This document shows positions 3,187 through 25,700 of a stretch of DNA of 64,000 nt, piece after piece. The position numbers and the translations under genes were made by a program. The stretch comes from Tetraselmis striata (lineage: Eukaryota; Chlorophyta; Chlorodendrophyceae; Chlorodendrales; Chlorodendraceae): the NCBI GenBank assembly GCA_006384855.1, contig VCJN01003005.1, forward strand, positions 62,001 through 126,000, written 5' to 3'. The notes under the pieces were generated by a model. That model ran no database searches and was not told the DNA's origin. It saw only the letters and a program-made list of their open reading frames with translations. The number at the start of each line of letters is the position of its first letter. Within the stretch, counting starts at the first letter, position 1.

Positions 3187-3210
3187 CCCCCCCCCCCCCC
3201 CCCCCCCCCC
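3187..3210. repeat. Poly-C tract (24 bases)
   Basis: Uninterrupted run of C inside what is probably an intron of the Ginger-like gene. One of about ten long C or G runs in the window. Confidence 0.9.
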
Positions 3211-4031
3211 GGCTCTCTGTCGTTCTCCCAGCGGTCCCTATGTCCCTCGCCTCCCTATACCGACCAACCGATCAGATTATATGACAATGGCGTTCCTGCC
3301 TCGCGCGATCTTGGACTATGATGCCCCCGATCTCCACCCCTGCTCCCCGCCGCCCTCTATCGTCGTCTCCTTCCTCTATCTCTCATGATCCCTGACAAAA
3401 TTGAACAATGGTATGCTTTAGATATGGTCTTACTTTCCTCCTCGGCGCGGGTGCTATGGTTTCAGGAAAGGAAGAAGGCAGCCCCTACTGCGAGAAAATT
3501 CGGACTTCTCACTCGTGGCGGGGGTCAAGTATTGGTCAAGTATTGGTCAAGAGGCCAGTGCCCCCGTCCGCATCATGGCCGGGCCCTTGCGCGAGCCTAA
3601 CGCCCAAAGAGGAAGCAATATGGCTGGCGGTGGCGGTGGCTGAGGCGCAGAATGAGCATGTCCTGCCGCCCCCCCTTCCTGTGAGTTGGCAACATGTCTC
3701 CCCTTCTGGTCTGCTCTGACCCTGCTGTCGATGCTCGGCAGCTGGACCAGCAGACAGATGAGCGACGCGAGACAAGCTGCAAGCAGCGGCGGCCCCCGCC
3801 GAGCTCGGGGCCGCAGGCGCCAATGAGTGGGGGTCAAACGCGAAGACAGAGGTGGCGCGCATCCTTGTCGGTGTGCGGTTCCGGTCAGGGCCAGCCGCCG
3901 AGCTTCCGCCGCGGATGCGGCGTGCTAAGCAACCTCGTGGCTCTCAGTGGAGAAGCGTATAAGGCTGTGGTGCATCCGCCTGGGAGTATGTGACTGTCCC
4001 TCCAGTGAGCCTAGGTAGCTGTGCTTGGGGC

Positions 4032-4035
4032 TGTT

Positions 4036-4066
<31 letters not shown>

Positions 4067-4072
4067 GGGGGG
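4032..4072. repeat. (TG)n followed by a poly-G tract
   Basis: A short TG microsatellite runs into 23 consecutive G. Non-coding, inside the Ginger-like element. Confidence 0.9.
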
Positions 4073-6079
4073 TCCTGCATGTTGCTGGCTCTCATCGCTG
4101 TGCTCGACCCGACGGCGGCTTGCCTAACTCTGCGCTTGGGGCGTGGGTGCAGGTGGAGGTGCAGGTAGAGTGGAACCCCACGCTGAAAGCGCTCCGTGAC
4201 GCCATGGCGCAGCTCCACCCCACCTTGTTGTACTTTGTCTGCCCCGCCGTGGATACAGGGGACGGCAGCAGCGGCGGCATATCATTGGGGGCGCAGCGTC
4301 TGGGCGGCGGTAACGTGGAGGCCGGCGGCGTGGCAACCCAGGAGGATATCGCGGCGTGCACTTGCTCCGGTGCGTGGCAGCACCCGCCAGGTTGCCCCTC
4401 CTGGGCTTGCCGCCGTCCGCATCGCCATCACCTTTGCGGTGCACGCTCTGCCGCACGCTTGACGGCATGCCATCATAGTTGTTAGCTTTTCTGTCGCACT
4501 TGATGCAAAAAACATATTGACATGAAATATGATATTTGATATTAGAAGTACAGGTGCCAACTTTCCCATAAGATTTTTTTTTGTAAGCCTCAAGTTATGC
4601 AAGCTATATAAGAGCACTCCCTCTAGTCCCGCTATTGTTACGTCTAGATTTGACGTGGCACGCAAGGCAGGTTCCTATTCCCCGTGTTATCAATACCCCG
4701 TCTGCACCCGTAGCATATGTATGAGAATGTTAAATAATGATCAGAAAATAAAAATGTATCCACCCATCCGTCAGCGCCATTGATGGCACAGCATTGGCTC
4801 CTGCGCAGTCATTGGTGTGCTGCTTTTGCGCCGCGGCGATGTGATGTTTGCTATAACATGTGCTTCTTCAACGTCGCAACGCCTGACACTCCGTGTCGGT
4901 GCCGGGCAGGGCGTGTATGTGGATGCGAAGGCCGGGATGCGGCTGGCGGAGGTGCTGCGGCGTCGCTGACGTAGTGTGCTGGGTGTACAAACAGGAGGAG
5001 GTGCCCGTGTAGATGGCTGCAGACGGCAGCATAGCGAGCGCTTTCAGCCGCGCATTCTTTGGGCATTTGTGTTTGATGTCCTGCTGGGTGCGCTCTGAAT
5101 CACGGGAGCGGTCTGGCCAATTAGACCAGGACGTCGCAGACACGTTAGAGCGCCAAGCCATCAGGTCTAGGCGTGCCGACGTTCAGGCCAAGCAAGCCAT
5201 AGCAATGCGGACCAGAGTGGCTGCACATCATGGGTCAGCACCATTGATTGGTGATGTCGTCCGTATTCCAATTCTAAGCGTCGACCGCTCCAAGCCAGAT
5301 GCACAATGCTTGGTGTGCATTGTCATCGAGGTAACAAGCCCTATGTATATGTAAACATATTTTTGGTATGGCATTGCCTACATACTATGTGCTTGTGGTT
5401 TTGATTTATTGGGTGTGTGACATATCATGGGTTTGAACTGGTGTTTCAGATGACTGAGCATGGCCTTTCAGGCTTGCAACCAAGGATGGAGTCATACGGC
5501 CAACTTTTCGCCACGAAGATATTGATCCTGTGCGTGACAGTGTCCCAGCGCAACACGGGCTGCAGGGTGTGCTGAGGGACAGCCAAGTGGGTACAGATAT
5601 CAGTGCGCAATGCATCAGCTTCTGCATCCCTATTTGGTGGCCAGGGTGTGTTGAGGTGTAGTTGCAAGGGTCCGTGCAGAACCAATGTATGTGCATGCCA
5701 CAACGCACGCAGGAAATGCAACTCCCGGTGTCACGATGGCAACATTTACGACGAGGGAGCTTCCACTAGCCAAGTTACGACCCCTGTCCGTGTCCTAAAG
5801 TAGTGCGCAGCAATGTAATGATATGACACCTGCCAACACTAACTTTGCCATTGTCTAAATGCTGACGACATCCTTTTGTACATTGCTGGCTGATGTTGCT
5901 TTGTAGTGCCTTAATCTACATTTTAAGGGCATCAAACGAGTGGCCGGCAGCATGCTTAAATAATTTATTTGTGCCTTCTGGAATATTTATATTTCAATAA
6001 TTCTAAATTAGAACCCTACGCTCGAATTCCGCGGACAAAAATGAACGTATATTCATAGGTGTCTTATCGCACACTCGAA

Positions 6080-6245
6080 AATGACACATGTGTACATGTG
6101 TCACGTGTCGGGCCGCAGATATGCACATGAGCCATAATGTTAATGCCTCATGTGCACATGTGTCGTGATCAACCGAAAAAATGACATATGTGCACATGTG
6201 GCGACACATGTGCACATGTGTCACGTTTTCATATGGGTCTTAACA
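6080..6245. repeat. Right subterminal palindromes and TIR of the Ginger-like element
   Basis: Contains a perfect 20-base palindrome, GACACATGTGCACATGTGTC at 6203-6222, plus degenerate copies at 6081-6102, 6149-6165 and 6184-6200. The terminal bases mirror 2208-2241 in inverted orientation. Confidence 0.75.
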
Positions 6246-6249
6246 TATA

Positions 6250-6404
6250 TAATACAGCACGCCGATATACGAGTACTCATGCGCGTGACATGCGCGCACT
6301 CGTACTCTTGTACCCGTAGAATGTACATCATTCAGTGGTACCGGCTCTCGTACTGTATTATGCCAAAGATAGCGCATGACAGGTTATACATTATAACTGT
6401 CACA
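6250..6404 (-). repeat. Gypsy LTR, second part
   Basis: Continues the LTR interrupted at 2207 and ends ACTGTCACA at 6404, the same terminus as the other LTRs. It is followed by the polypurine tract (on the minus strand) and the 3' end of pol. Confidence 0.75.
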
Positions 6405-6615
6405 CTACATCTCCCCACCCTTGGACAACATAAAGCGGTATTCAATTTGCAGTTGGAATTCTAGCCGGATGTTTAGCCGCATGCTGCAGAAACTCATCTG
6501 ACTCAGCAAACAGCAGCCACATCGGCGTATCCAGAACACTTTGCAAAGCAACAGTCCGTTTTACATCAAACAGACGATGCCAAACATGTGCAATAGTTTT
6601 ATCATTCTGCAAAGT
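6405..6615 (-). pseudogene. Gypsy pol 3'-end fragment of the old copy
   Basis: Encodes the C-terminal tail of the integrase region (VWHRLFDVKRTVALQ), closely matching the end of the whole pol at 47107. It stops at the MITE. Confidence 0.75.
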
Positions 6616-7094
6616 CACACCGGTTCGCGTAGGTACTCGTTTCTGAAGACCGTAACCGGGGCTCAAATCCGAGATGTGTAGCTGGCAACGCTTTTTGGCT
6701 ACGTGGCACGCGCTGCGTGCGAAATATTAGCACGTGACCGCTCGCCCTCCTCCCTCATCATCCCGCCGCCAGCCCCATCCCTGCCCGCGACACACAAGAC
6801 GAGGCACCTGAACGCCACCATATGACTACGTTAGCGCGCTGCTACCGCGGTATGCGCGTGATGGTGCCGGCCGGTGTGTTCGACTGGCATCGGTGGGGCG
6901 GGATGGCTTGGCGAGACGGGTGGTCACGTGGGCTCTGAGTTTTGATCAAATGACGTTATATTTGACTGTATCAACCGGACACTAATCACTATTCGCACTC
7001 GTTTCGGTAGTTGCATCTCAGGATTGGGACCCCGCTACACACAGCTTAAACCCCGGGAGGATTTCATTCAGCGAGTATCCAGGGAACCGGTGTG
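6616..7094. mobile_element. MITE of 479 bp inside gypsy pol
   Basis: Begins CACACCGGTTC and ends GAACCGGTGTG, a perfect 11-bp inverted repeat. Gypsy sequence reads ...GCAAAGT before it and GTGCACC after it, matching GCAAAGTGCACC in the other copies, so a 2-bp GT duplication is implied. No coding capacity was seen. The superfamily is undetermined. Confidence 0.65.
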
Positions 7095-7108
7095 GTGCAC
7101 CAGAAATT

Positions 7109-7140
7109 AACAGTATTGCAACCTATTTTGCCCCGAGGCA
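7109..7140 (+). repeat. Left terminal inverted repeat of the 12-kb element
   Basis: Starts AACAGTATTGCAACCTATTT and is matched 25/32, ungapped, by the reverse complement of 19148-19179. A further shared TAGGGTTTG lies about 50 bp inward at each end. Confidence 0.7.
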
Positions 7141-7289
7141 CGCGGTGCATTGTGGTTAGGTCTAAATTAGGGTTTGGGGGCAGGAGTGGGATTGCAAGCT
7201 AATATGAATGCCGGTTGGTTCATTTTGTGCCAAGTCGGGGAAACCAATTCCGTCCAAGCAGGGACAAATCAAAAGAGTGAAGGAAACGG

Positions 7290-7428
7290 GATGGTTACAA
7301 GAAGTTTGCGCCATCAGGGGCTGAAACTCTGTCCAAACAAGGACAAAAATAAGGGCGGGGGCCGTGATGGCTACAAGTAGTTTGTGCCGTCCGGGGCTGA
7401 AACTCTGTCAAAGCCGGGACAAAACATA
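7290..7428 (+). repeat. Two diverged ~70-bp tandem units ending in GGACAAAA hairpins
   Basis: Units at 7290-7365 and 7366-7428 share the order GATGG(T/C)TACAAG, GGGGCTGAAACTCTGTC, then GGACAAAA. CTCTGTCC...GGACAAAA and a related CGTCC...GGGACAAA at about 7250 can form short stems. Related stems occur at the other end of the element (18239-18310, 18964-18984). Confidence 0.55.
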
Positions 7429-7544
7429 TGAGCGGCTAATTTTGCGGAATTGTACTACATATCATCATCTTCGATCACATAATCCCCTCGGCGCTCTGCC
7501 GCCTCTTGCCTCTTCTTCGCTGCCGCAAGACGCTCTGAGAACTC

Positions 7545-10500
7545 CTATGACACGGTCATTGGATGGGGTAGACCCGGCCACTTCTCGAAGTCACTTGGAC
7601 GCAGTCTTTGAGTCTCGTCCCATGGCTTCTCTTTGAACCATGAGGTCATCCTGGACTTCATCCCAGCGATTTGCGTCTTCTGGTTGTCAATGAGGATAAT
7701 CTTCAAGTTCCTGTGTGTGAACGAGTAGCTATGATCCATATGGTCCCACCACACGGAAAAGGCCGCAGCGACCTGGAAAAGGCGTGGCAAACCGCACAAG
7801 GCGTTAGTTTTTTTATGCTGATCCCATTAAGACACTCACCCGGGTTGCACCCCTCACGCACCGCGGTTGTCCCGGTTCCGGCTGTGACGTCGACGATTGT
7901 TGTCCCGTCTGTTGCCGCCATCTTAAGGTGCTTGGCGAAGAGAGCGATAGGCTTTTGGTACTTGTTCACCGTCTGTCTGTTCTCGTCCTTCAATTTCGAA
8001 CTGTCTTTGAAGTGACCCAACATGATGGATGTAGAGAATCTGGAAAGGCACAACCGGCTTAGCGAGTAGAATAATACAAGCCGGCTATTTTCCACGGATC
8101 AAATCTCACCTTCGGGGATCATCGAAACGGATGTTGTCAGCTATGATGCTTGGCGGGGGCTTCCTGACGTAGAGGTAGTACTCAGCGTCGTGACGCAGAG
8201 AGCTGCCCATCTTCATCCCGCAATCCTTGGCCCAAGTCAGGACGTGATAGATGAGGTCCTCAGCTTGTTTTTGAACGGCTGTGATTGCGGATCCAAGTTG
8301 CTGGTCCGAGAGGTGAATGAAGAAATGGCACCCATCGAGAGCAGTGTGGACGTCAGAAGATCCAGTCAGGATATTCAACTGCCTGCGCGGGGGAAAAATC
8401 GGGAATGAGATAAATGAAAGCACAGTCATCTACGCACCGGGTTTGTGGGGGTTGTCTTGCCTGGCGAAAGCAAACACGTCGTTGAAGTCGTCCGTACCCC
8501 ACGCAGCATCCTTCGAGTCCCATGTGTGCGAACCAGTTCCGAAAAGCGCGTCGGCAATGAAGACTGTTGCCTTTCTGGCACGAACTGCCGACATGGCGTC
8601 CGCGACGAATTGTTTTGTCGCGGGAGCCTTGAAGTTCCCCTCCACAATGCAAGTCTTGCAAAGCTCCGTGTTCAACCACGCCTGGTCATCCTTGTCGACC
8701 CCTTCTCCCTTGGGCATCACCGGAAGTTCCTCGGCCTGTGCGTATTAGAAAACAGATTCGGGTTAATGGCTCACAACGAAAATTCAGAAGAGCATTTGTG
8801 GTTGCACAAGATCTTAGTTACCTTCATCGATATCCACAGCTCATTAGAAACATTCGGAGCGGAAACCGCGATAAGCTCCGGCGCACATGCGAGAAGAGCA
8901 AACTCTGTGAAGAAGGAGATGACCAAGTCCGGCATCTGATTCTTGATGCGATACGCCTCACTCCTTATGGTGGTGTTGGTGGCCGCGATATGCTCTCGAA
9001 CCGGTAGTGGTGTGAGACAATCGGCGGATTTCATGTCCCCCCATCTGGCAGGAGAGGTCAGCAAGACCATCAAAGGACCGGAGCGATGAGCACCTTTGAA
9101 CAAATCCTGGAACTTTCTGGGGAAGCCTGTTGGGCCGAGGTCATCAACCTTGGCTCGGAACTTGATGATGGCGTCAAGGCGAGCGGCCGCTTGCTCATCC
9201 GACACTTTGTCTTGCACATCCCAATCGATTATGTGGTCCGAGAGATATTTCCCCCAATTCCTGGCCGGTTCGTCCGGCGTCAGCAGTTGGATTGTCTCCC
9301 TGCCCTTGGCCGTGTCAATGACATTCATGAGCTTGATGCTTGCTCGACGCAAGAGATCGCGAAACCTCCAGGTCTCAATCATCGCGAGCCACTCCGCGTT
9401 GGTGTGCGTAACAGCCATGGGGCCATTGTCGCCGGCATGCTTAATGTCATCCACCAGCTCGTAGAGGCTCGGGGTCACACTGTGCTCGCCTTGGATGAGC
9501 AGTCCAACCACCAGGTACATCTGGCCCACAGGGAGATCCGCGCTGTCGCTCTGCTTGGCAAGAGACGGCTCGTCTAGCCAGGGCGCATGGGGTCCAAAGC
9601 CAACATCCTGGGTCGAAAAACAAACTTCAGTACGGAGAAAGACATGTTAGTATTCCATATGATTAAGACACTGGGGTCGGTCACAACTTACCTCCATGAG
9701 GGCGACTCGGAAGTGAGCTCTGTCTTTCCCGAAGCCGTACTTCTTGTTATCGAGGATTGTATTGATAGGCTTCCGAATTGCTTCGTAAACCTTGCTCACT
9801 TCCTTCTGGGTGAGTTGCCTGCCGTAATTGAGACGCTCGACTCTATCGAGTTCTTGCTGGTAGTACACAAATAGGTCTCGGAGTTCCATCCTCGAACACC
9901 GAGGTCCACATGCCGGTAGGCTTCAGAAATCTGCTCAAGGGGCTCAAAAACACTGCGCAAATCATTTGTCAGAATCTAACAACATTAACAACACGATAAA
10001 TTTTCATCATGTACGCAGCTCACCGTTGTGGGCGCGAGCAGAGGTCAATCAAAATTGATAACTCGCTGCTCTTCTCATCTTTGATGCCGATTTTCTCAAG
10101 TTCAACTTGAAGAATTTTCAGACTTCTTGAACTCCTTCACTACCCTGATTTGCGGAAGTTCCCTAAAGCCGGGGCGATTTGCATCCTGTTCTGCATACCG
10201 GCTCTCGAAACATATGCGAAGGTTCTGCAGAAACAATTGCACCGATTTCAAAATTCCGAACGATTGTACCTCGATGACAAACCGTTTCGTCCCGCTGATG
10301 ACAGAACGTTTCGCCCCTTTTAATGACAGAACGTTTCGTCCCACTGATGACAAACCGTTTCGTCCCACTGATGACAAACCGTTTCGTCCCACTGATGACA
10401 AACCGTTTCGTCCAACTGATGACAGACCGTTTCGTCCCACGGATGACAAACCGTTTCGTCCCGCTGATGACAAACCGTTTCGTCCCACTGATGACAAACC

Positions 10501-13500
10501 GTTTTGTCCCGCTGATGACAGAACGTTTCGTCCCACTGATGACAGAACGTTTCGTCCCACTGATGACATACCGTTTCGTCCCGCTGATGACATACCGTTT
10601 CGTCCCGCTGATGACAGACCGTTTCGTCCCACTGTGACATATTTTTAACCCGCTAACGACAGAACGACTTTTGTCACACTTTACGCCTATTTGCTGCCAC
10701 GGTCAGCTTAATAATAATTTGGGAGAATGGGCCACTCACCAAGAGTTTGTGCATTGACGTGTCTCCCACGACGGTGTGACCCGCCTCGTTGAGCTTCATA
10801 GACATGTAGCGGCAGACTTCTCGCGAGAGGCCGATGTACATCTTAGCCGACGTGAGGTGGATGCCTTTGTTGGCTTTGTAGATTTCCGGGTAGTTTACTT
10901 TCACCATGCGCTTCGCCTCCCGTCTGTGGCTGCCGTCGATGTTGGCTTGAAGCGCGCCGTAGGCGCTAAGAAACTCGATGATGACGTCGATCTCTGGCTT
11001 GTAGGAACTTGAATCCGCCAACCTCGGGTTCTCCCCGCCTTCGTGTGCTGCGACTAGCTCCTTGTAGTTGGCCATGGTCAGAGCGAGGGGCTCGTACTCT
11101 TTGGAGAAACAATCGCGGTTCTTGTGGACTACTGGAAAGGACACCGAGAAATTCTCGGCGGACAGGGAAGGATTCCTCTGAATAACAAATGCAAGAAACG
11201 GATGTCAGTAAGTTGCATTGTGTATTGATTTACATGTAACTACACATATCTGACTTGGATAGGTACAACAGGTCGCGATAGGCTTTTACCTTGTAGCTTT
11301 GCGTCACCATATTGCAGTCTTGCAGCTTTGGGGAACGGAATTCAAATTCCGGCGGCGGAGCGACGAACTTATCGGATATGAAGCTGAAAATGTGAGGCAG
11401 CCCCGTATCCTTGTCGACGACGAGGTTGACTCTGTCGGCGTATAACGGGTTGATGTCGCCACCGTGAGATGTCTTCACCTCTGGATCAGCAATCTCGACT
11501 CTGAGGTGGCCGTAAGAGATACAGTCGACGGCACCGGTGTTGTGGAAGCCATTCAAGGCCGGCGGGACGGCCAACGTGTTGACGTATGGAAGCGCGTTCT
11601 TAAAATCCTTGTCAAATTTGGCCAAGTCATCGATGTCAATCTGACCAGACGCGAAACCTGTCAGCGCCTGCGCCAGCACATTGCGCTCGACCAAAGTCCA
11701 TGCGTAGTAAGACTGGAACCGCGGTTGGAAGCAGAGTTGCGGTTGGATCGCGTGGAGTAGCAACCTCTCAAAGCTGACATCGATCCTGAACTCCTTGTGC
11801 ACTGTCAAGCGATAAGGTTCAAGGGAGATCTGCGGTAACAAGCATAAGAATATTAATACTTATTGAAACACGACATTGACACGAATTCAGACATCATATA
11901 AGCTTTACTCACCTCGTAGTTTCCGGCCGAGTCCAGCTCGACGTCCTTGATCTTTCCGATACACGCGAGAAGTGGCCCCTTCGGATCATCGAAAAAGTCC
12001 TTGCCAGTCAGCAGGCTCGCCTTAGGCGATTCGATGTACAAATAGATATGTATCTCAGCACTTGTGTTCTTGAACCAGTGGATAGTCCAGCTCCTTGAGG
12101 TAAAGTCGTTGTAGGAGTCATTTTCTTGGGACCCGTCCCTCTCGTCAAAGAAGTCGTCGTAAGAGGCGACCGTCATCAGCTTTGTCTTCCTCTCGGGTCC
12201 AGGAGTGCCGGTGATGTCGAGAGCTTGCTTACGCTTCTCTGCCGCCCGTTGCCTCTGTTCTTCCTCTGTGCCGAAGACCTCTTCATCCGTGCACATACTG
12301 AGGAATTCAGGAACCCTTCTCGGAGCCTCGGCAATAGGGGCTCGAGAATCAGAGGCTCCAGAACCAGACGCTTGCCCGGTAGTCGGCGCTGGAGTCTCGA
12401 GCTCGGCCTCTGGCTCCGGGTCAAGCCGAGTGGGCTCGGGCTCCGGCTCCGGCGCAGTGTGCTCTATTTCAGGCTCAGGCTCTGTTTCCGGTACTTGAGA
12501 TGGGCCTTTAGACAAAGAAGAGCCTTGATTCGGGGAGCCTGTAAAGAATGAGTAGAGAGTACTCAACACACCTGCAGTGGGCGTCACGATTAACTACTGA
12601 ACATTATCGCCATAGACCATCAAAGCCAAGCGTAATTTTTCTTACCTGGGGATCCCGATTTACCAGCTGCTTCCGACGCGGTTGCCTGCGCCAATTTACG
12701 ACCTGTTGGAACGTCAGATAACTCATTGACGAGAAAGTAATCGAAGGGAGTGAGAAGGCATGGATTGATACTTTCAGTCACAATTACCTGGAGTCACAAT
12801 CGTCTCTGAAACCTTTTCTTTTCCCTTGGATTCCTTTGAAGCTTGAGTCGCTACTGGCTCATGTGCGCGTCCTTTCGAACCTGTCAACACACATGATTTC
12901 AAACAATGTAAATATGACACAGTGCACTCACAAAGGCAGGGATTGATACTTTCAGTCACAATTACCTGGAATCACAATCGTCTCTGAAACCTTTTCTTTC
13001 CCCTTGGATTCCTTTGAAGCTTTAGTCGGTACTGGCTCATGTGCGCGTCCTTTCGAACCTGTCAACACACATGATTTCAACCAATGTCAATATGACACAA
13101 TGCACTCACAAAAATCATATGATTGGAGAGGCAAGGACCTGATTGATAGTAAGCTTGCATGAGTTTTTCGTAATCGATTAGCCTTCGCGCTGTCTGCATT
13201 TGAGCATCTGAGAGGACCTGGCCGCTCTTGATTCGGGCCGTCAAAAGGGCGGCGGCCGATCTTTCTCCTTGCGAGTGCGTGCCGTAAATCGTCACTCTAC
13301 CTCCTAAAAGGCTCGGTTTCCAGGGGTTACTTGATGCCTCAGCGCCCGCTCTAGCTGCAGAAGCTGAGGCTGCACGGCTCTTCTTCGCCGCCGGCTGCTC
13401 GGGCACAGAAGATGACGCCTTGTGTTTTCTCCCGACTAGCGCTCCGAGCGCATCGAATTCTTTTGCTTTCTCGGTAGGTTTTGATGTCCGCTTGGACCTT

Positions 13501-14567
13501 CGACCTATAAATATCATATCCTGTCAGACCGTTTCGTCCCACTGATGACAGACCGTTTCGTCCCACTGATGACAAACCGTTTCGTCCCACTGATGACAAA
13601 CCGTTTCGTCCCACTGATGACAAAACTTTTCGTCCCGCTGATGACAGACCGTTTCGTCCCACTGATGACAAACCGTTTCGTCCCGCTGATGACAAACCGT
13701 TTCGTCCCACTGATGACAGACCGTTTCGTCCCACTGATGACAAACCGTTTCGTCCCGCTGATGACAGAACGTTTCGTCCCACTGATGACAGACCGTTTCG
13801 TCCCACTGATGACAAACCGTTTCGTCCCACTGATGACAGACCGTTTCGTCCCACTGATGACAAACCGTTTCGTCCCACTGATTACAAACCGTTTTGTCCC
13901 ACTGATGACAGACCGTTTCGTCCCACGGATGACAAACCGTTTCGTCCCACTGATGACAAACCGTTTTGTCCCACTGATGACAGACCGTTTCGTCCCACTG
14001 ATGACAAACCTATTTTCAATACATTATGTACTGCGGTTTAATAATGTAATGTCTTTAAGTACTGCGCTTCACACTAATATTAAACCACTCCTTACGGCGT
14101 AGTACATGCAGAGGTTCCCCCTGGCCGCTCTTCACCTCCACCCCCTCCCACTACCAATTGGCATCCTTACTGAACTTGCCGCAGCTGCCTCGACGGGACG
14201 TAATACTACCCTGCAGGACCTTGATGCCGCTCGTCTCGTTTGGGTTTCTATTCCCACTCGTCTGCCTACACCTCGAGCGGTCCTAGATTACACCGCTTCT
14301 ACAGGGAACCCTAACCGAACTCGCTAGATCTGGCCGCATCACGCGTCGAGCAGGCAGGCGGCTACTGCACGCTCCCACTCGTCTGCCTACACCTCGAGTG
14401 GTCCTAGAGTACACCGCTTCTACAGGGAACCCTAACCGAACTCGCTAGATCTAGCCGTATCACGCGTCGAGCAGGCAGGCAGCTACTGTACGCGCGCGCA
14501 ACTCACTTGGGGTGGCGTTGTCCTTGTCTTCCTTGTCCTTGGCAGGCTCGTTCTTCTTCGGCGCCAT
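7545..14567 (-). CDS. Multi-exon protein with C-terminal amino-methyltransferase-like domain
   Basis: Exons on the minus strand: 14507-14567 (MAPKKNEPAKDKEDKD), 13139-13504, 12966-13058, 12788-12880, 12646-12702, 11913-12538, 11290-11829 and 10740-11177. All have GT-AG borders and matching phases. Then come 10224 leftward to about 10024 (structure unclear), 9692 to about 9890, 8822-9607, 8438-8735, 8110-8382, 7840-8039, and 7545-7772. The N-terminus is basic, followed by a Pro-Glu-rich stretch (EPEPE) and a large region of unknown fold. The C-terminus resembles beta-class N6-adenine/N4-cytosine methyltransferases: ADALFG...WD (motif IV position), a long helix then LTWAKDCG...HDAEYYLYVRKPP, KPIALFAKHLK (motif X), DVTAGTGTTAV (motif I, AdoMet binding) and NLKIILIDNQ (motif II-like). 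The catalytic DPPY/F is replaced by DALF. My phases fail at about four 3' junctions, so small frameshifts or errors are likely. Divergent from the transposase gene. Confidence 0.65.
10273..10636. repeat. 24-bp minisatellite array 1 (intron of the methyltransferase-like gene)
   Basis: About 15 units of CCGTTTCGTCCCACTGATGA plus CA(A/G)A. GTTTCGTC and GACAAAC within each unit are near-complementary, so each unit can fold as a short hairpin. It lies in the intron between the exon starting at 10740 and the one ending at 10224. Because 24 is divisible by 3, several frames are open on both strands (FVPLMT..., LSSVGRNG...); these are not taken as genes. Confidence 0.9.
12762..13117 (-). repeat. Tandem duplication of an exon with its intron (2 x 178 bp)
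   Basis: Units 12762-12939 and 12940-13117 are nearly identical. Each carries a 93-nt exon (12788-12880 and 12966-13058) encoding SKGRAHEPV...KEKVSETIV, with identical splice sites and phase 1. Both copies can be spliced in frame. The duplicated peptide is charged and probably disordered. Confidence 0.85.
13522..14010. repeat. 24-bp minisatellite array 2 (intron 1 of the methyltransferase-like gene)
   Basis: About 20 units of the same quasi-palindromic 24-mer as arrays 1 and 3, starting 17 bp from the acceptor of exon 2 (13504). Units differ mainly at ACAAACC versus ACAGACC and CCCAC versus CCCGC. Confidence 0.9.
14252..14493. repeat. 121-bp tandem duplication
   Basis: TCCCACTCGTCTGCCTACAC begins both units (14252 and 14373), and each ends in GAGCAGGCAGGC(G/A)GCTACTG(C/T)ACGC. 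A handful of differences separate them. Located within intron 1 of the leftward gene, next to its donor. Confidence 0.9.
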
Positions 14568-15114
14568 TCTGGCGGTAGGTAGGTTGACGCGGTAGATGAG
14601 CGGGTTTCTTGGTGGGAAGCGGTGAGGGAGAGGTGGAAATGACGTGGTTTCTGTCTGCCGCCGCTCTGACCCCTGCTGGACCAACGGCGCGCGTGCGCAC
14701 ACTATAGTGTACCTCGTCGTCGTCATCAGGTTCATGTATTTTGCACCGCGACGAATATACAAGGCTAACTACTGCGACTAAATATTACTATTACTGGAAG
14801 ATAAAATATTCCCTACTCGAGAGTCATAACGGTACGAGAGTACAGTGGCGTGGCAATAATATTCCTTCATGGGATGATATATTCCTTGGATTGGATTCGG
14901 GTGTACTTACTAGTATAGAACTATTTCCGACATACGAAAGAAACACGAAATAGCACGGTATTTGAGTCCTCAATAATTTTGACCCGTAGCTGGATATTAT
15001 GCCCCCCGGTCAACGGCCCGTCCGAGAACGGTCGTCGGCCGTCACTCTTCTTCACCACAGATCACAGTCCTTCAACCCCCCCCCCCCCCCCCCCACCCAC
15101 TCGCCCCGCGCTGC
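14568..15114. promoter_or_regulatory. Divergent intergenic region, likely bidirectional promoter
   Basis: The 547 bp between the two start codons (14567 minus, 15115 plus) is AT-rich in the middle (14760-14960) and has a 19-base poly-C run at 15076-15094. No TATA box was singled out. Head-to-head spacing suggests shared control; this is inferred. Confidence 0.4.
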
Positions 15115-18100
15115 ATGGCGGCGGTCGAAAGCATGGCCTCTTCTCCAGGATCCGGCGCGTCGGACACTACAGTTACATTACCGCTGTGTTCGTGCCGCAC
15201 CGGGTACTCGTGTGATTGCGACGCGCGTGCGAGTGATCGTAAGGAGCCTGAGAAAAGGAAGTACACGTGGGGCAAGGGCTCCGATGAGGTCGCCGAAAGC
15301 GATAATGGCAAGGTCTCGTCTCTGATCAGCAAGCGCACCTCTCGCGATTGTATCCGCCTCATGCTCGCCAAGGAGGCTAGCGAGCAGTCGCCATGCTGTT
15401 CGCGCAAGTGCGAGCACAAGCTATACACACAGTGCGGAGAGGCCCTCGTTGATGCCGTGTTGGACCGTGCGTTTACCGTATACTCTGGCAATCAGAACCG
15501 CTCCTTTGACCGGCTCGCTCAGGTTCTCAGGGGTGGCTACGAGTCGGCATCCGACAAGTTCGATTACATGTTCGATCACGGTGGCTACTTGCGATCTTTC
15601 GATCATCGCGGCCCCATCTACACGTGTGGGCGTGCGTGGGAGGTCTTGCATCAGGTCTCGAAACACAGACGTCTCGTGATCCAGCGGTCGGTGGTGGATA
15701 ACGAACCCACGTACATCAGGCAGCGCAAGCAATACGAGAGCAGACAAACCGGACCGAGGGAGCATGTGCGCATGTTTCTCGAGCACTTCTTCTCGGATGA
15801 CCTCGGTCACGTCGAGATCATGCCTTTTCATGACGGAAACAACGAGACCTTCAAGAAGCACCTACCTCCCTGGATGACCAAGATTTGCGTCTACTACTAC
15901 TACAAGTCGTGGGCCGAGGACGACAACGCCAATCTCCGTGGTGAGGCCCATTTTGTCCCACTGATGACATACCGTTTCGTCCCACTGATGACAGACCGTT
16001 TCGTCCCGCTAATTACACACCGTTTTTGTCCCGCTGATGACAAACCGTTTCGTCCCACTGATGACAGACCGTTTCGTCCCGCCGATGACAAACCGTTTCG
16101 TCCCGCTGATGACAAACCGTTTCGTCCCACTGATGACAAACCGTTTCGTCCCACTGATGACAGACCGTTTCGTCCCGCTGTTGACAAACCGTTTCGTCCG
16201 GCTGATGACATGCCGTTTCGTCCCACTGATGACATACCGTTTTGTCCCGCTGATGACAAACCGTTTCGTCCCGCTATCGCCAGAACGTTTAGTCCCACCG
16301 ACGCCGGACCGATTTCGTCCCACTGATGACAGAACGTTTCGCACCGCTCATGGCATACCGTTTCGTCCCACCGACCACAAAAGTATTTGTCCCACATAAT
16401 TAGCCGATATCGTCCCACTGCAGAGAGAACGTCTTGTCCCACTGCTGAGAGACGGTTTTGTTCCACTACTGACATACCGTTTCGTCACACTGATGACAGA
16501 TTGTTTCGCCATGCTAATTACAGAATTATTCACCCACTACCGATATAATTATTTCGACCACTTTAGACCGAACTTTTCTGTCTCGCATTATGAGACCTTA
16601 TTTGTATACCGACCTATCATGCACCTGCCCCTTTGTAGATTTGGCTACCGAGAGCGAAGTGAAGCTCGCATCGTTCGACACTTTCCGCCGGACTTGGAAG
16701 GAAGACTTCCCGGATGTCACCACGCCGAAGGTGAAGCGATTCAGCCACTGTCCCATATGCGCGGCGGGCAAAGCACTCAGAGACCAAGCTCGCGAGATTT
16801 GCACAAAGGACATGACGCCAGAGGAACGTCCAGTGCACCGTCAACATCAGCGGCTGGTGAGGCGTCAGGTCAGAGCTGAGCAGAAGGTACACCTCGAGAG
16901 AGTGCGCCAGGAACGAAGGGATCTGAACAACGCCGTCTTCCAGTCGCGCCTTGGCCATGGAAACTTCTTCTTCTTCGAAATTGATAGCATGGACTCCGCG
17001 AAAACCCTGCTGCCTCACTGGGTTCGCATCCCCAAGACTGTGAAGCCCGACATGCTCCTCAAGTACCACCTCACCTGTGTGAAGTACGACGGATACCGCC
17101 CGGACGACATCTACTACTACACCAACACCATCCCCCACGATTCGTCCACGACGTGCACTCTGATATGGATCATGAACATGAAGGTGAGCTCGTTAGCCTC
17201 CCGATAGGTTCGCCGTGGTTGTCCGGTAGCCATGGACTGATGAAATCTTGTCTGCGATGCAGGAAATTCAACACCGTGGTAGAAAGATTCCGTACATCAG
17301 AATCCAGATGGACAACAACGTCAGGGAGAACAAGAATAGGAACGTGGCGGCCCTCTGCAATTGGCTTGTGTCTATCGGCATCTGCGACGTCATTCATTTG
17401 GTCTTCTTGCCTGTCGGGCACACTCACGAACGGGTTGACCAGATCTTCAGCCGCATCAGTCTTGCGCTATCTCGCAGCTCCGCCTACACAATCGAAGGCA
17501 TTCTCGCCCACTCCGGAGATTGCTGAGCTCTCATTCTCCCGCGACTTCTCTGAGTGGTTAAGGCCCCATTTCCAAGACCACATTCAGGACATCAGAAAGC
17601 CGCACAAATTCGAGTTCACCCGTGACGACGCCGCCGCGTCTGGCGGCTCGTTGCGCACCGCCTTGTGGTCCAACACACTGCTTTCTGAGCCCGTGCAGAT
17701 CTTGAAGAGCGCGCCAACTGGGACGCCCGAGATTCGTGCGGGCCGGCCCCTTTTGTACGCTCTCTGCGACAAAAAGAAGCCCGACGCGGTGAAGGTCCAT
17801 AGGTACTTGGATGATTTCAAGAAGGTCAGGTCGTACATCACGGACCTGGCGGTCCAGTGGCACTTCTCCCCAGTCGAGCGCGAGAGCTGGAAGAATCTGC
17901 TCGACGACTTGGATGAGATGCAAACTGCTCCTTCGGCAGCTTTCTCCGTGTTCTGGCCGCAACGGAAAGAGGAAGTTGACGACTTCTTGCGCGAGCACGG
18001 GCAGACCGCGCCTGCTGCGGCACGTCACACGATGGCTACCAACGCAGACCTCAACAATGCCGCAGCCGCTCGCGTGGAAGCCGAGGTTCGTGCTCAAGTG

Positions 18101-18887
18101 CTTCAAGATGACAGCGCCTTCCGGGGAGTTCACGCCGGCGCCAAGGAGAGGCTTCATGACAACACATCGCCCAGCGATGCAAAGGGCTCGAACCTCGTTG
18201 TCATCGACGTCTCCGATGTGAGTCCCATTGTTTGTCATTTTTGTCCTTTACGGGACAAAACAATTTGGTCCTTCTACCTTGCTTGTTATTTTGTCCCAAC
18301 TGGGACAAAAATGGCGTGGCGTCTCGCTCGGGACTAACATAGCTCGCGGTCTTGGTCATCGTTAGGTGCATGAGGAAGACAAGTGTCCTGAAACTCTTGG
18401 TGATTGGGAGTCGAGATTTGTCATCGGGCTTGTGAAGTCGCGCGAGACTACCGAAGACACGTTGACCGTGGCCGTATACGAGCCCTTCCATGCCGATGCA
18501 AAGGGCAAACCCCTCATGCCCCTATGGTTGTACGCGCAGACAAAAGGAGGGAAGAAGCCAGTTGACACAAGCTGGGAGAAGTGCCTGACGCTTCCTTGGA
18601 AGCTTGTTGAAGCCGTCCCCCTATCGTACGCGAAGGCCATCCACGACGCGTCGGGAAGTCGAGAGGTGTTCAACGAGGACGGCACCATGGTCAGAAAGAA
18701 GTGGTACGGTAAAAGCGTCCAAGTCGTGAAGACATATGCGCAAACTGGGTGGCAAATCAGCCAGCCACGAAACAACTGCGTCCACGTCACGTCAACCACC
18801 CCAGCGCAACGCAAACCCGGCGGAGTCGTCAAGTTTAACGCAGCCACGAAGAAGGACTTGCTTGAGTTGGGGATGCTCAACGAATAA
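15115..18887 (+). CDS. DUF7869-type transposase-like protein
   Basis: Four exons: 15115-15940, 16639-17183, 17263-18217 and 18366-18887, all GT-AG, with phases 1, 0 and 0. ATG at 15115 follows a pyrimidine-rich leader. The N-terminal half has Cys pairs (CSCRTGYSCDC), a conserved-looking helical part and CPICAAGKA (about residue 310). The core matches the DUF7869 pattern: FFEIDSMDSAKTLLPHW, then QMDNNVRENKNRN, a hydrophobic strand, and FLPVGHTHERVDQIFSR. The acidic residues of the first two motifs plus ENKN or VDQ are candidate metal ligands. The C-terminal exon is Trp-rich and ends LLELGMLNE. One 1-nt frameshift probably lies at about 17490-17520, where the frame ending in a stop at 17526 gives way to one reading PEIAELSFSRDFSEW. 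The gene is otherwise open. It probably moves the 12-kb element. Confidence 0.75.
15951..16530. repeat. 24-bp minisatellite array 3 (intron 1 of the transposase gene)
   Basis: About 23 units, regular at first and increasingly degenerate after 16300. It lies wholly inside intron 1 (15941-16638). The array stays open in the frame of exon 1, so an unspliced transcript would add about 125 repeat-encoded residues before a stop at 16326. Confidence 0.9.
18239..18310. repeat. Two GGACAAAA hairpins in intron 3 of the transposase gene
   Basis: TTTTGTCC (18239-18246) pairs with GGACAAAA (18253-18260). TTTTGTCCCA (18289-18298) pairs perfectly with TGGGACAAAA (18301-18310) across a 2-base loop. A weaker relative lies at 18964-18984, beyond the stop codon. 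Confidence 0.8.
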
Positions 18888-18936
18888 ACTATCAGCAACG
18901 TCTTGTGGCTAGCTAGCCGCGGGATGTAATAATCAT

Positions 18937-18942
18937 AATAAA
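18937..18942 (+). other. Candidate polyadenylation signal AATAAA
   Basis: AATAAA lies 50 bp after the stop codon of the DUF7869-type gene. Suggestive only. Confidence 0.4.
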
Positions 18943-19147
18943 TATTGATTTCATTGCCTCATCTTGTCCCATTTTGGACAAAATGCTCCAAAACCAACAT
19001 TGGATATGCGTCGCGGCTGGCCTTATGCTGTTGAATGCTGCACTGCACCCAAGGTCTACAAACCCAAGCTACATCACCAGTGAGTCTTAAGTACTGATAG
19101 TAAACCCGGGAACTAGAATATAAACAAACCCTACGGTGCAAAATGAA

Positions 19148-19179
19148 TTCCACGGTGCAAAATAGATTAAATTACTGTT
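19148..19179 (-). repeat. Right terminal inverted repeat of the 12-kb element
   Basis: Ends ...AAATTACTGTT, mirroring AACAGTA at 7109. ATTTTGCACCGT also appears twice in tandem here on the minus strand. Confidence 0.7.
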
Positions 19180-22100
19180 AATTGCAATTGAGATCCTTTG
19201 CGGCCAAGCATCAAGCCAATCTTGACTGCGGATATCTTTTCAATTTCAAACTCCTGGCTTTCAGGATCTTCCTCAGAACCCGTGACCATTGGCACAACCG
19301 GTCGAATAGGTGCAGTCGGACATAGCCGCAAACTATTCACATGAAAAACCGGATGTAACTTCATCCCCGGAGGCAACTGCAACCGGAAACTATAATTGCC
19401 AATCTTCTCAATAATCGGAAAAGGACCCAACTGCCTATCCATTAACTTCTCGTTAGGTTGGCCTTTGATTTTCAGAAAGCGAGTTACAATACTCACTTTA
19501 TATCCAACATTGAAAACGGGAACATCCCTATGTTGCCTTTCCGTAGGACGAACAGTCAACTCATCCTTATTATGAATTGCCAAAATAGATTTGACTAAGT
19601 CATGGATGTCTTTCACATTCTGGATTTTCTATTGAGCACTGACTGACACATGTATTGTAGGCCTCATGGCAAACAATAAGTCAGGAGGTGTTTCAGGATT
19701 AAATCCGTAGTTAACCTCAAACGGCGTATGCTCAATACCAAGTGCATGATTAGAATTATACGAAAATTCCATCAACGGCAATTGATCAACCCAATTGGTG
19801 CCATCAAAGCAATAAAAACGCTCGAGTCAGTCCACAAACCCAATATGCCGCCATGGCTAGTACTCAGCTGCTCCCCGGAAACTACGGGCGCCTGCGCGAT
19901 TTTGAGAGGACTGCGAATAAGGGCCTGGCCTGGCCTGCCAGAGGTCAAATGCGAAACCTAATAGACAGAATCCGACATTAGAGATTTCTTACATTTTCAT
20001 TCCTGCCAGTCTCCCAACTACACAGGCCAGCTGCCTTGCGCCCTGGCTGCATGAGCCCGCATAGGGTTTGCTGCCCCCTAGGAGGCAGTGATAGTCTAAG
20101 ACAAAATATGTTATAATATGATACATAGTGGCATTGATCCTTTCAGTCAGACCATCCGTTTCAGGATGTTGACCACTAGACATGTTTAACTTATTGCCTA
20201 GGCGACGCCACAAAGTCTGCCAAAAAGACGACATAAATCTTGGATCACGGTCCGAAATTATAACCCTTGGTAAATCATGCAGCCTGTATACTTCCTTCAG
20301 AAATAATTCAGCTGAATATTCACCAGTCACTGTTTTAATCGTCGGAATAAAATGTGCTTGACGGGTTAGATGGCATACGACAACCAGCATTGCATCAAAA
20401 TCATTACTCACAGGTAAATCGGTAATGAAATCCAAACCAACTGAGTGCCATGGACGTGGCGGCACTGGAAGTGGCTGCGTCGGTGCTGCCGGTTGCGGTC
20501 GAGAACGTGCCCGCCTACATGTTGGACAATTCTCACAATAGGCTTTCACGCACGTCATGACGTATACGCGTCCGCCAAAAACGATCCAAGGCGCACGTGC
20601 CAAGAAACTCTGAACAGCCCGGTGCCCAGCAGTATCATGTAACTCATACAATATTTTGTTAATGAGCTGACGGGTTTTTAGGGATGCATAGGCATTTATG
20701 CCTCCAAAAAACCCGTCATGTTTGGACACATGTCCCGACTACTTCATCCACCCACCCCGTTCGGCATAGAAGTCGTCTGCCACATATACCCCGTTTTTAT
20801 CATGTCGAGTATGTCATCACTAAGCTTTAGAGTACTCACACTCATAGAAGCTATGGCAGTACATTGTGGGTTGTGTACACATTCAAGTGCCTCAGCCGTA
20901 TCCGGCACATACCCGGTCCAATAAAGGCCACCGAAATTTAACGGTTTGAAATCCGGTCTACGAGACAACGAATCTGCCTCATTCCACTTGCCTTTTCTAT
21001 ATGCAAGAGACATTGAACCCACATAAGAATGTAAGTCGCGAACATAGCGAGCTTGGCGTCTATTCATCCGTTCTGCAGGTTGCCTGAGCAAATGCCGTAG
21101 GGTGTCATGGTCTGAAACAACAAGGAATCGACGGCAACCTTCAAGGTAACACCTCCAATGCTTAATAGACTCACAGACGGCCAATGCCTGGTCATAAGCA
21201 GAGTAAGTATTCCCACGCTCAGCTGCATTCAGCTTCCGCGCCCAGAATGCCACTGGTTGAGAGCCTCCTCCCTGGTCCTGCAATAAACTGCAGCTAGCCC
21301 TACGTTGGACGCATCTGTCGCTACGGTGAACGTCACATCACTGCCTATTTCCGGTATATATGGTCAGACAAGGTGCGGAAATCAAACGCAGGCGAAGAGA
21401 CTCGAAAGCTTCCTAACAATCAGGACTCCAGTCTACTACGGCTGGTTGTGTTTTACGTAACCAATCGGTCAACTGAGTGGTTAAATCACTGAAATGGTGT
21501 ATAAACTTAGAGTGAAAAATGCAAATTGTACAAAACTTCGCGCTTCGCTCTGAGTTTTTGGCACGGGCCAATCTTTAATCGCAGATATCTTTGACTCAGA
21601 TACCTGTAGAATACCATCAGATACAGTGTAACCCAAATACTCCATAGATGTCATACCAAAGAAACATTTCTTTAGTTGCAAACGTAGGTTATGCTCAGAT
21701 AATTTTGCCACTACCATACGAATATGTTTTAAGTGGTCAACTTAATTCTCTGAATATATACATCTATCATCAAGATACACAACCACAAATTTACGCACAA
21801 GGGTCGTAAGATACCATTCATCATACGTTGGAAAGTTGCAGGGGCATTGCATAATCCAAATGGCATAGCAGTCCACTCTAACAATCCATCAGGTGTTTGA
21901 AATGCAGTTTTATGTATATATAGCCTCCTCAGCTATAGCTACCTGCCAATAACCAGAGGCTAGATCTAAATGGGTATAGCATCGAGCTTTCCTCAACTCA
22001 TCAAGAGTTTCATCCATATGCGGTAAGGGATACGCATCCTTCTGAGTAACATCATTGAGACCACGAAAGTCCACACATAACCGGAAAGATCCATCCGCCT

Positions 22101-22791: not shown

Positions 22792-25700
22792 ATGGGTTCC
22801 CCCTTGCGGGCTACACTGTGAGATTCAGATGTGACGTAAATGTGCCCTACTGGTGACGAACGACGACATACGGGGACGATACGGGACGGACGAGGGACGT
22901 GGATTTCATACCCAGTAGCGACGACTATCGCGCACGACCTGTAAAGTACTATATGAATTTCTCGTTTCCATAATTTCATCAAATTGATATGCGCACGCGG
23001 GCTCGCGTGTCGCCCGCCGACGCGGAGTACCCGGGCTAAGTACAGGCGGCTGCAAGTACTCGCTGCACATCGCTGCACATCGCCGCGGTGTGCGGCGGTG
23101 TGCGGCACGACGGGCGGAGGTTTGGGCGGATGTAGGTGGTACGGTAGGTGGTAGGCGGTAGGTGGTGTTCGTAGGTGCGCGTTTTAATGCAGCCGCCCTA
23201 ACTGCTGATGATTGTGTAACGCCCCAGCACGCGCATGAAGTACGGGGTCGCCTGGCGGTTACCGCCGCTCACCGCTGAACCAAGCGCGGACAGCCGCGCA
23301 CTCGCATTTGTGCTCCCTGCCGGTGGTGGGCTACATCCACCCCAACTCTCAACCCCCCCCCCCCCCCCCCCCCCCGCGCGCGCGCGGCAGCAGGCATGCC
23401 GGGAGAGGGATGGATGTCGAGTGTGTCGAAGAATGGCGTGTACACATGCAAGCACTGCCACGGCATCGTGACGGGCAGTAGTGAAAGGACGGCGCGAGAG
23501 CGGCACTTCCGGAAATACCCGAACTGTAGCCACTCGTTGAAGCGTGCGGCTAAGTTGCACCGCAAGGCCGCCTTATTACAAGCAGCAGCAGCAGCAGGGC
23601 GGCAGCAGTAGCAGCAGCAGCGGCAGGGGCGGCAGCAGGAGTAGCTGCAGCCGTCGGAAACGGCCCGCCGGCGCCGGTCTCGGAGGACGATGTGATGGGT
23701 GTGGGGGAGGACCCCGTTGGCGAAGACGGTGTGGACATCGACGCGCCTGCGTGGCCGCCGGCGGACGTGGAAGCTGCCGATGAGGGCGTGATACGGAAAG
23801 GCGATCCCGGTGACTTCTACATGAAGGTCATCGCCAAGAAGTTCCGGGGAGTATGGCACTACGGCGTGATAACCGTCGTCGTTACCGAGTTGGTGTTGGA
23901 GGACTACGGCGGGGCGACCCAGTGGCGCGCTGTTTTCGAGGACGGTGACATTGTGGACCTTCTGCGTTCAGAGGTGAGTGGGCCCGGCCTGCGTGCGGGT
24001 GGCACCACTCAACTGCGGTTGTATGGAATCACACGCACCCGCCCGGTCGGCGTGGCAGGTCGTGGAGGCTATGGCGGCTGCCCAGGAGCACCCCCCTGTG
24101 GATGCGGACGGGGATGCTCGCTTGGTAACCGTCCATGAAGGCGATGACTTGTCCAGTGAATCACGCACCTTGCCCGGCGTGCGTTCAACACAACCCGGCT
24201 GGCGGAGGTTAAGCACAACACTGGCTGCCATGGCGTGTGCCATGTGCATGTGGTCCTTGGCTATGTCAGCATGGTCAACCTCTTCCCCCTTGCGCCGTTC
24301 CACCTGTTTTTTTTTGGCTTGGGAAGGGACTTCTGGAGGAAATTTGTCACCGTGCAGGGCCACATTGGATTCCGAGCTATGAAGCAGGAAGACCGGCGCC
24401 AGGCTTTAGTCCCGATACCCAGCAACTTTGAACGCGGGTTGCGCCCTTCGTTTGCAGTGTCCAAGAATCGAAAGGTAACCCCCCCCCCCCCCCCGGGCGT
24501 GGGCGTGCGTGGGCGTGGGCGTGACGGCATTCCCCTCCATGACTGCAGGGTCAGGCAAGGTGACGGTGCAGTCCGGCTGGGTCATGGAGGACTGCTTGAA
24601 CCACATGGAAACGTTTTCCATTCTTAACGCCGGTCCGCTGCTCGAGGAGGCCCGGGTGAAGGCGATCATGACCGAGAAGGAGCTTCGCGTCCCCAGGCGG
24701 TGCTTGGGCACGTGTACAAGCGCATGCAAGGAGCTGCGTGGTTCGTCACGCGGTGGGGGTTGCAGAATGTGGTGACGGAGGAGGACGGCCCCGAGCGCAA
24801 GGCGCAGGTGGACGCGCTCACCAGGGAGGGGAGGACTCTAGACCCAGCGCGGCGCCAAGGCGCAGCGGCCGGGGGAGCGCGGCGCCAAGGCGCGGCGGCC
24901 GGGGGAGCGCGGCGCCAAGGCGCGGCGGCCGGGGCAGCGCGGCGCCAAGGCGCGGCGGCCGGGGCAGCGCGGCGCCAAGGCGCGGCGGCCGGGGCAGCGC
25001 GGCGCCAAGGCGCGGCGGCCGCGGCAGCGCGGCGCCAAGGCGCGGCGGCCGGGGCAGCGCGGCGCCAAGGCGCGGCGGCCGGGGGAGCGCGGCGCCAAGG
25101 CGCGGCGGCCGGGGGAGCGCGGCGCCAAGGCGCGGCGGCCGGGGCAGCGCGGCGCCAAGGCGCGGCGGCCGGGGCAGCGCCGCGCCAAGGCGCGGCGGCC
25201 GGGGCAGCGCGGCGCCAAGGCGCGGCGGCCGCGGCAGCGCGGCGCCAAGGCGCGGCGGCCGGGGCAGCGCCGCGCCAAGGCGCGGCGGCCGGGGGAGCGC
25301 GGCGCCAAGGCGCGGCGGCCGGGGCAGCGCGGCGCCAAGGCGCGGCGGCCGGGGAGCGCGGCGCCAAGGCGCGGCGGCCGGGGCAGCGCGGCGCCAAGGC
25401 GCGGCGGCCGGGGGAGCGCGGCGTTAAGGCGCGGCGGCCGGGGCAGCGCGGCGCCAAGGCGCGGCGGCCGGTGCAGCGCGGCGCCAAGGCGCGGCGGCCG
25501 GGGCAGCGCGGCGCCAAGGCGAGTGGGATGGGCGGGGCAGCGGTTGCTACCGAGTGAGGCGTAGCATCGTTTGCAGTAGCAACGCAGCCTTTCCGGTTGC
25601 ATAGTGTGACGCTGCCTGGATGTAACCCAGCAGTACGCGCAAAGTGCAAGTGCAAGCTGCTGGTGGCGGGGATCCACGCGAGGTCGCAGGACGGTGCGCG

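Follow-up and report, generated by a model that had tools for sequence, protein, structure and literature searches.

A large DUF7869 transposon of Tetraselmis striata with an opposite-strand ParB-like/methyltransferase gene, probably of the kind published as Sola1-1_Ec32

Sola DNA transposons as a whole make 4-bp target-site duplications, and the Sola1 transposase is of the DDD type. For Sola2, 4-bp duplications of the pattern AWWT are reported (PMC3627910). Sola1-1_Ec32 of Ectocarpus is a 21.5-kb transposon with an opposite-strand gene that joins ParB-like and N4/N6 DNA methyltransferase domains in a 1104-amino acid protein, and this accessory protein is proposed to bind and modify the sequence of its own element (PMC12477816). 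The element analyzed here lies at positions 7109-19179 of a 64,000-nucleotide window of the chlorophyte Tetraselmis striata (assembly GCA_006384855.1, contig VCJN01003005.1, positions 62001-126000; contig C2425 in the 224-Mb, 2,903-contig assembly that was searched for copies). The overall explanation, to which a probability of roughly 0.8 is assigned, is a large cut-and-paste DNA transposon that encodes a DUF7869 transposase and an accessory ParB-like/methyltransferase protein. By its layout, the element is probably of the kind published as Sola1-1_Ec32.

The segment is a genuine DNA transposon inserted in a gypsy retroelement. Its boundary features are the following.

7105-7108, no strand: left target-site duplication AATT, read from the flanks and other copies
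7109-19179, plus strand (set by the transposase): DNA transposon of 12,071 bp, defined by its ends, flanks and other copies
7109-7140, plus strand: left terminal inverted repeat, beginning AACAGTATTGCAACC, 25/32 identical to the right repeat
19148-19179, minus strand: right terminal inverted repeat, aligned with the left repeat
19180-19183, no strand: right target-site duplication AATT, read from the flanks and other copies

The inverted repeats are imperfect (25/32 and 27/40 identical positions), and the element begins AACAGTA and ends TACTGTT. Terminal 152-bp queries found 386 and 388 candidates in the genome, and the 40 scored for each end were all 97-100% identical. The other copies read begin and end at identical bases, with flanks that diverge right outside the proposed ends. 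Twenty-one copies, 7.3-14.8 kb long, were paired at both ends by pattern. Identical 4-bp flanks border 14 of these and are lacking in seven (C58, C226, C809, C914, C1399, C1441 and C2449); one more copy (C735), with a left end one base off the pattern, reads AACT/AACT by eye and brings the total to 15 perfect duplications in 22 copies. When left flanks were mispaired with the right flanks of other copies among the 21, only 4/420 combinations agreed. The 15 duplications comprise 14 different tetranucleotides (AATT, TCAC, CGAC, GTTC, GCTC, GTAC twice, ATGT, ATAT, TAAC, ACCC, GTAA, TGAA, ATAG and AACT), a variety incompatible with any fixed target sequence, and AATT is ruled out as a target motif. 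Inverted repeats and target duplications of constant length, as expected of DDE/D cut-and-paste transposons, are thus both present.

The joined flanks of the window copy had 41 matches in the genome. Six of these run unbroken across the junction (query positions 136-267, junction at 149/150) with 97-99% identity and therefore represent the empty gypsy site; the remaining 35, among them the left flank of the window copy itself, match only the left side. To the right of the element, the minus strand encodes gypsy domains (SH3_Tf2-1, RNase H and, below threshold, H2C2). The empty site makes the gypsy sequence the target and rules it out as part of the same unit. A retroelement or viral origin of the element was rejected because no such domain occurs in the 16 element frames scanned. 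A sequence-only reading of this DNA had placed the ends at 7109 and 19179 from the gypsy interruption, the AATT duplication and the 32-bp imperfect repeats, and the flanks, the empty site and the copies that share these ends bear this out. It had named copies with differing ends as grounds for rejection, and the copies examined share the ends. Of the AATT-like 4-bp duplications that it proposed to look for, the length was borne out and the sequence was not.

Two observations concern individual copies. The right-end flank at C2206:16127 resembles the element's own 24-bp minisatellite unit, and this copy is probably an insertion into another copy of the element. At C340:53482-69180, four same-strand matches to one stretch of the accessory gene occur within 16 kb, as if pieces of the element were tandemly repeated.

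The plus strand of the element carries the transposase gene.

15115-18887, plus strand: DUF7869 transposase gene with four inferred exons (15115-15940, 16639-17183, 17263-18217 and 18366-18887), from the domain match and mapping from the intact copy C363
17230-17526, plus strand: exon 3 frame, open between two stops, that carries the main DUF7869 match and precedes the effect of the frameshift (PF25273, 92.5 bits, profile positions 44-130)

The DUF7869 match in exon 3 has an E value of 3.3e-26 and a score of 92.5 bits, for a PF25273 cut-off of 26. The intact copy C363 is 12,455 bp long and is flanked by an ATGT duplication. Its plus-strand gene has four exons separated by GT-AG introns and encodes a 956-amino acid product. 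Gene models of T. striata (jgi/Tetstr1, TSEL_*) match the transposase with up to 100% identity, and four of them (P0001-P0004) are 100% identical to residues 230-620 of the C363 protein, a span that crosses two of the three splice junctions. The DUF7869 domain scores 149.5 bits in P0001. The window gene is broken by a 23-bp deletion near 17492, and the ratio of nonsynonymous to synonymous substitution (dN/dS) between C363 and the window copy is 0.43. The Pfam name DUF7869 gives no function, and the word did not occur in the literature searched, where most subscription journals were outside coverage. Residues D172, D255 and D297 are invariant in 7/7 alignment rows; one relative (L103, below) reads GHTHDHID, and position 294 could serve instead. 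Computation gives moderate support for a transposase core that probably adopts an RNase H-like DDE/D fold. Sequence searches of solved structures gave no credible match for this core (best E = 0.32).

In a six-frame search of the genome, all 150 scored DUF7869 matches (of 548 candidates) exceeded the cut-off, and 19 of the 150 tie at 131.5 bits, which fits a recent spread of the element. At least two further DUF7869 families occur in the same genome (C652, C1345 and C1519, read as L113, L114 and L112). One further family is ~35% identical to this transposase (P0050) and another is ~53% identical to P0050. The ParB-methyltransferase gene was not found beside DUF7869 in the single copies read of two other families (L113 and L114); L112 is cut by a contig end. 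In one gene model (P0041, TSEL_005106), the DUF7869 and methyltransferase domains are joined in a single protein, probably an artefact of gene prediction across a copy with a deletion or rearrangement.

The accessory gene occupies the opposite strand.

7455-14567, minus strand: ParB-like/DNA methyltransferase gene, 11 inferred exons mapped to the window from the intact copy C363
14567-14507, 13504-13110, 12596-11913, 11829-11290, 11177-10740 and 9930-9692, minus strand: exons 1-6, mapped from C363
9607-8822, 8735-8434, 8382-8110, 8039-7862 and 7772-7455, minus strand: exons 7-11, mapped from C363
10740-11177, minus strand: exon 5, with the ParB-like GSHRREA motif (motif level only)
7862-8735, minus strand: exons 8-10, methyltransferase core, in which ADALFG takes the place of motif IV and is followed by motif X (QKPIALF...) and motif I (DVTAGTGTTAV), from the profile match and motif reading

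In C363, GT-AG introns divide the minus-strand gene into eleven exons, which together encode 1,445 amino acids with no stop. The splice sites are inferred and are partly backed by public gene models that use the same junctions, though the models skip various exons. The window gene is broken by two stops and a 19-bp deletion near 9833, and it also has an in-frame 108-bp deletion near 12432; its dN/dS relative to C363 is 0.63. The window copy is therefore defective in both genes, which corrects any reading of 7109-19179 as intact. A 1,028-amino acid part of the C363 protein matches PF01555 (N6_N4_Mtase) with 27.8 bits, or 31.6 bits for the domain alone, over a cut-off of 26.7, and the broken window copy gives a sub-threshold 22 bits. 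Profile searches of both proteins thus agree with the proposed pairing of a DUF7869-type transposase with a beta-class methyltransferase-like protein, and the exon structures of C363 (4 + 11) agree with two divergent spliced genes.

The canonical catalytic motif IV of beta-class methyltransferases is [DNS]PP[YFW]. Motif I (DVTAGTGTTAV) is clear in the accessory protein and follows motif X (QKPIALF). The motif IV position reads IADALFG in 15/15 gene models, a departure from the catalytic pattern, and it reads IADIPYG in the counterpart proteins of a second host (L103, L104, L109 and L110, below). For the large exon, 13 copies chosen for diversity were compared; three of the 13 had a stop, and that codon was skipped. 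All 35 pairs with a synonymous divergence (dS) >0.1 show dN/dS ≤0.56, with a median of 0.43, a substitution pattern that indicates the accessory gene is under constraint during the spread of the element.

Upstream of the methyltransferase core, the stretch NIDGSHRREAKRMVKENYP...KMYIGLS resembles a ParB-type core at the motif level. No ParB model in Pfam or NCBIfam matched the accessory protein or its counterpart in the second host; the counterpart gave DUF6551 alone, below the cut-off (E = 0.0073). An hhalign comparison of the accessory proteins of both hosts lands on the ParB-like stretch with E = 0.002 and a probability of only 13.6%. The ParB-like profile A5 had no credible match among solved structures by sequence, and the predicted structure of the ParB-methyltransferase protein has a mean predicted local distance difference test (pLDDT) score of 28.8. 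"ParB-like" is accordingly used here as a motif-level reading, to which the Ectocarpus report lends weight. A protein search with the accessory protein returned 19 proteins, from Tetraselmis only, among 7,992 candidates scored.

The linkage of the two genes was measured across the genome using the 150 scored DUF7869 matches and 134 scored matches to the large exon of the minus-strand gene (of 454 candidates). A scored DUF7869 match lies within 15 kb and in divergent order for 82 of the 134 exon matches, and 59 of these pairs are 7.5-8.4 kb apart; the other 52 have no DUF7869 partner within 15 kb among the scored matches. The left end is 1,586-1,783 bp away from the large exon in 28 cases, and in 28 cases a distance of 1,543-1,557 bp separates the DUF7869 match and the right end. 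Neighboring gene-model numbers mirror the pairing (for example, TSEL_018301/018302 and TSEL_043409/043410). The element is present more than 100 times in the T. striata genome, and the window holds one worn copy. The sequence-only reading would have been undone had the two genes never occurred together elsewhere, and these divergent pairs show that they do.

Relatives outside Tetraselmis were found in GTDB contigs. A scan with alignment A3 gave nine loci, eight in one cyanobacterial metagenome-assembled genome (MAG) labeled Trichormus and one in a MAG labeled Arcticimaribacter. The Trichormus-MAG contigs (L103-L110; CAKZGI010000142.1 and others) contain introns, gypsy-like frames (L104, by eye) and transposons of this type and hence look eukaryotic; this suggests that the sequences were binned into bacterial MAGs and that the Trichormus MAG is contaminated. 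Five loci (L103, L104, L105, L109 and L110) have a DUF7869 frame and opposite-strand ParB-like/methyltransferase frames, and the DUF7869 frame of L103 is 888 amino acids in one piece. Three shorter contigs (L106, L107 and L108; 3.7-4.2 kb) match the transposase part of L103 and not its methyltransferase part, and L111 (3.6 kb) showed no match to the L103-type transposase or methyltransferase frames. The L104 element spans 391-8114 with AACA on both sides; AACA is also the element's own start, which makes this duplication less telling. L103 and L110 have recognizable ends without matching duplications. Right ends in the second host are TGTT, as in Tetraselmis, in 6/7 cases and GGTT in L105 (L103 and the left ends partly by eye).

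The transposases of the two hosts align over 355 columns with 30% identity (1e-40). The methyltransferase of the second host, with its pieces joined, matches CcrM (2.4e-6) and DpnA (9e-5) in the PDB and, more weakly, MboIIA (0.004) and RsrI (0.015). A tblastn search with the Tetraselmis accessory protein found nothing at E = 0.01 in L104, L105, L109, L110 and L111, and the BLASTP alignment between the methyltransferase parts of the two hosts was limited to 82 columns at the C-terminus; both results argue against a simple common origin of the accessory genes. A protein search with the diverse alignment A3 returned 91 proteins, from Tetraselmis and others with none from Ectocarpus, among 7,996 candidates scored, which is not evidence of absence. 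None of 29 pattern matches in viral contigs was confirmed as a relative, and no related match was found in phages.

Three arrays of a 24-bp minisatellite lie inside inferred introns of both genes, as the sequence-only reading had proposed.

10273-10639, no strand: 24-bp minisatellite, 15.3 copies, inside intron 5 of the methyltransferase-like gene
13528-14010, no strand: 24-bp minisatellite, 20.1 copies, inside intron 1 of the methyltransferase-like gene
15951-16508, no strand: 24-bp minisatellite, 23.2 copies, inside intron 1 of the transposase gene

Tandem duplications within the accessory gene lie at 12755-13112 (178-bp unit, intron 2) and 14252-14493 (121-bp unit, intron 1), with 95% matches. 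The element contains 15 occurrences of the heptamer GGACAAA/TTTGTCC compared to 1.94 expected (maximum of 10 in 200 first-order Markov sequences). Three copies stand in line near the left end (7262, 7341 and 7417), one lies ~200 bp from the right end (18976), four form two palindromic pairs at 18240-18309 in the last transposase intron, and the other seven are minisatellite units. These heptamers are possible binding sites. In the window element, GATC and GANTC are rarer than a first-order Markov model predicts (z = -3.5 and -3.2); these values have no genome baseline and no inference is drawn from them. Elsewhere in the window, a 30-bp minisatellite of 22.6 copies occupies 24845-25521 (96% matches, score 1249), and a gypsy polyprotein at 47110-50919 has a 1,270-amino acid open frame with protease, reverse transcriptase, RNase H, integrase H2C2 and SH3_Tf2-1 domains.

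The element resembles Sola1-1_Ec32 as a large DNA transposon with an accessory ParB-like and methyltransferase gene opposite the transposase, where the ParB part is at the motif level here. It differs in size, with 12.1 kb and a 1445-amino acid accessory protein compared to 21.5 kb and 1104 amino acids, and the likeness is one of layout. The transposase domain is a clear member of DUF7869 (PF25273) and extends that entry, which is now associated with an element of defined ends, with duplications of 4 bp and with a fold that is probably RNase H-like. The accessory protein shares with the beta-class DNA methyltransferases CcrM, DpnA, MboIIA and RsrI a motif IV position that precedes motifs X and I, the PF01555 match and motif I (DVTAGTGTTAV). 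Unlike these enzymes, it is eukaryotic, intron-rich and 1445 amino acids long, with a ParB-like part and ADALFG at motif IV. Sola2-Fanzor and virus-borne Mariner elements with methyltransferases are likewise DNA transposons with accessory genes, and Sola2 has 4-bp duplications; their accessory proteins and transposases are different, and the duplications here have no fixed AT-rich pattern (PMC3627910).

That the element founds a new transposon superfamily, as the sequence-only reading had suggested for a type that it could not name, is very improbable; the element may yet represent a new subgroup. The idea gains something from a Pfam name without function and from a word, DUF7869, that the searched literature lacks. 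The 4-bp duplication, however, is a Sola feature and is present in the window element family. It is published for Sola2 (PMC3627910), and a Sola1 transposon with an opposite-strand ParB-methyltransferase gene, Sola1-1_Ec32, is already known from the brown alga Ectocarpus (PMC12477816). What appears to be new is Tetraselmis as a host, the link to DUF7869, one further host and the conserved altered catalytic motif (ADALFG compared to ADIPYG). A passenger gene without a role in transposition is unlikely. No accessory gene of this type was found in the single copies read of two other DUF7869 families of T. striata, and for 52/134 scored exon copies the matches listed include no DUF7869 partner within 15 kb; but 82/134 keep the layout, dN/dS is below 1 in 35/35 pairs, and the same layout recurs in the Trichormus-MAG contigs and in Ectocarpus (PMC12477816).

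Two roles are considered for the accessory protein. An active self-methylating enzyme would methylate the DNA of its own element, at N6 of adenine (or N4 of cytosine), to escape silencing or time transposition, as proposed for Ectocarpus. The above-threshold PF01555 match, motif I, the agreement of the second host's proteins (which carry ADIPYG) with known N6-adenine methyltransferases, and the proposal made for Ectocarpus of binding and modification of its own sequence (PMC12477816) all favor such an enzyme, yet ADALFG is invariant in 15/15 gene models, and we regard it as rather doubtful. We tentatively entertain a catalytically changed partner that keeps S-adenosylmethionine (SAM) and DNA binding and may act as a DNA-binding regulator, as a transpososome scaffold or by pairing with a host methyltransferase. 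Conservation of ADALFG while the large exon is under constraint points to such a partner, and the subterminal GGACAAA repeats are its candidate binding sites; against it, altered motif IV residues may still be catalytic, and 7/15 of the GGACAAA/TTTGTCC sites are minisatellite units. A broader and rather doubtful proposition is a widespread eukaryotic transposon class (DUF7869, AACA...TGTT ends, 4-bp duplications) with the ParB-methyltransferase as a conserved working part, which in Tetraselmis may have lost the canonical catalytic motif yet be selected as a DNA-/SAM-binding regulator and not as a methylation writer.

The preferred explanation, a large cut-and-paste transposon with a transposase and an accessory ParB-like/methyltransferase protein, starts from the observed ends, 4-bp duplications and intact frames. 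The DUF7869 transposase, whose core is probably of the RNase H-like DDE/D type, would bind the element at its AACAGTA... ends, excise it and insert it where a target of no set sequence is cut with a 4-bp stagger, a chemistry that we infer from the moderately supported computed fold. The divergent gene would supply an accessory protein in which a ParB-like motif is combined with a domain like that of beta-class DNA methyltransferases; this protein would accompany the element and be maintained by selection. It most likely binds the DNA of its own element and either marks that DNA or controls the element's expression or movement, and the altered catalytic motif in Tetraselmis makes a binding or SAM-sensing role possible. 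The window copy, with both genes defective and its ends intact, could presumably move only in trans.

These findings link DUF7869, a Pfam domain, to a transposon whose ends and target duplications are defined, and they add one host to the published algae in which a transposase is laid out with a ParB-methyltransferase gene. Should the altered motif IV prove inactive, the question arises why the accessory protein is maintained. T. striata, with more than 100 copies and some frames intact, is an organism in which transposon-borne DNA methylation is directly measurable.

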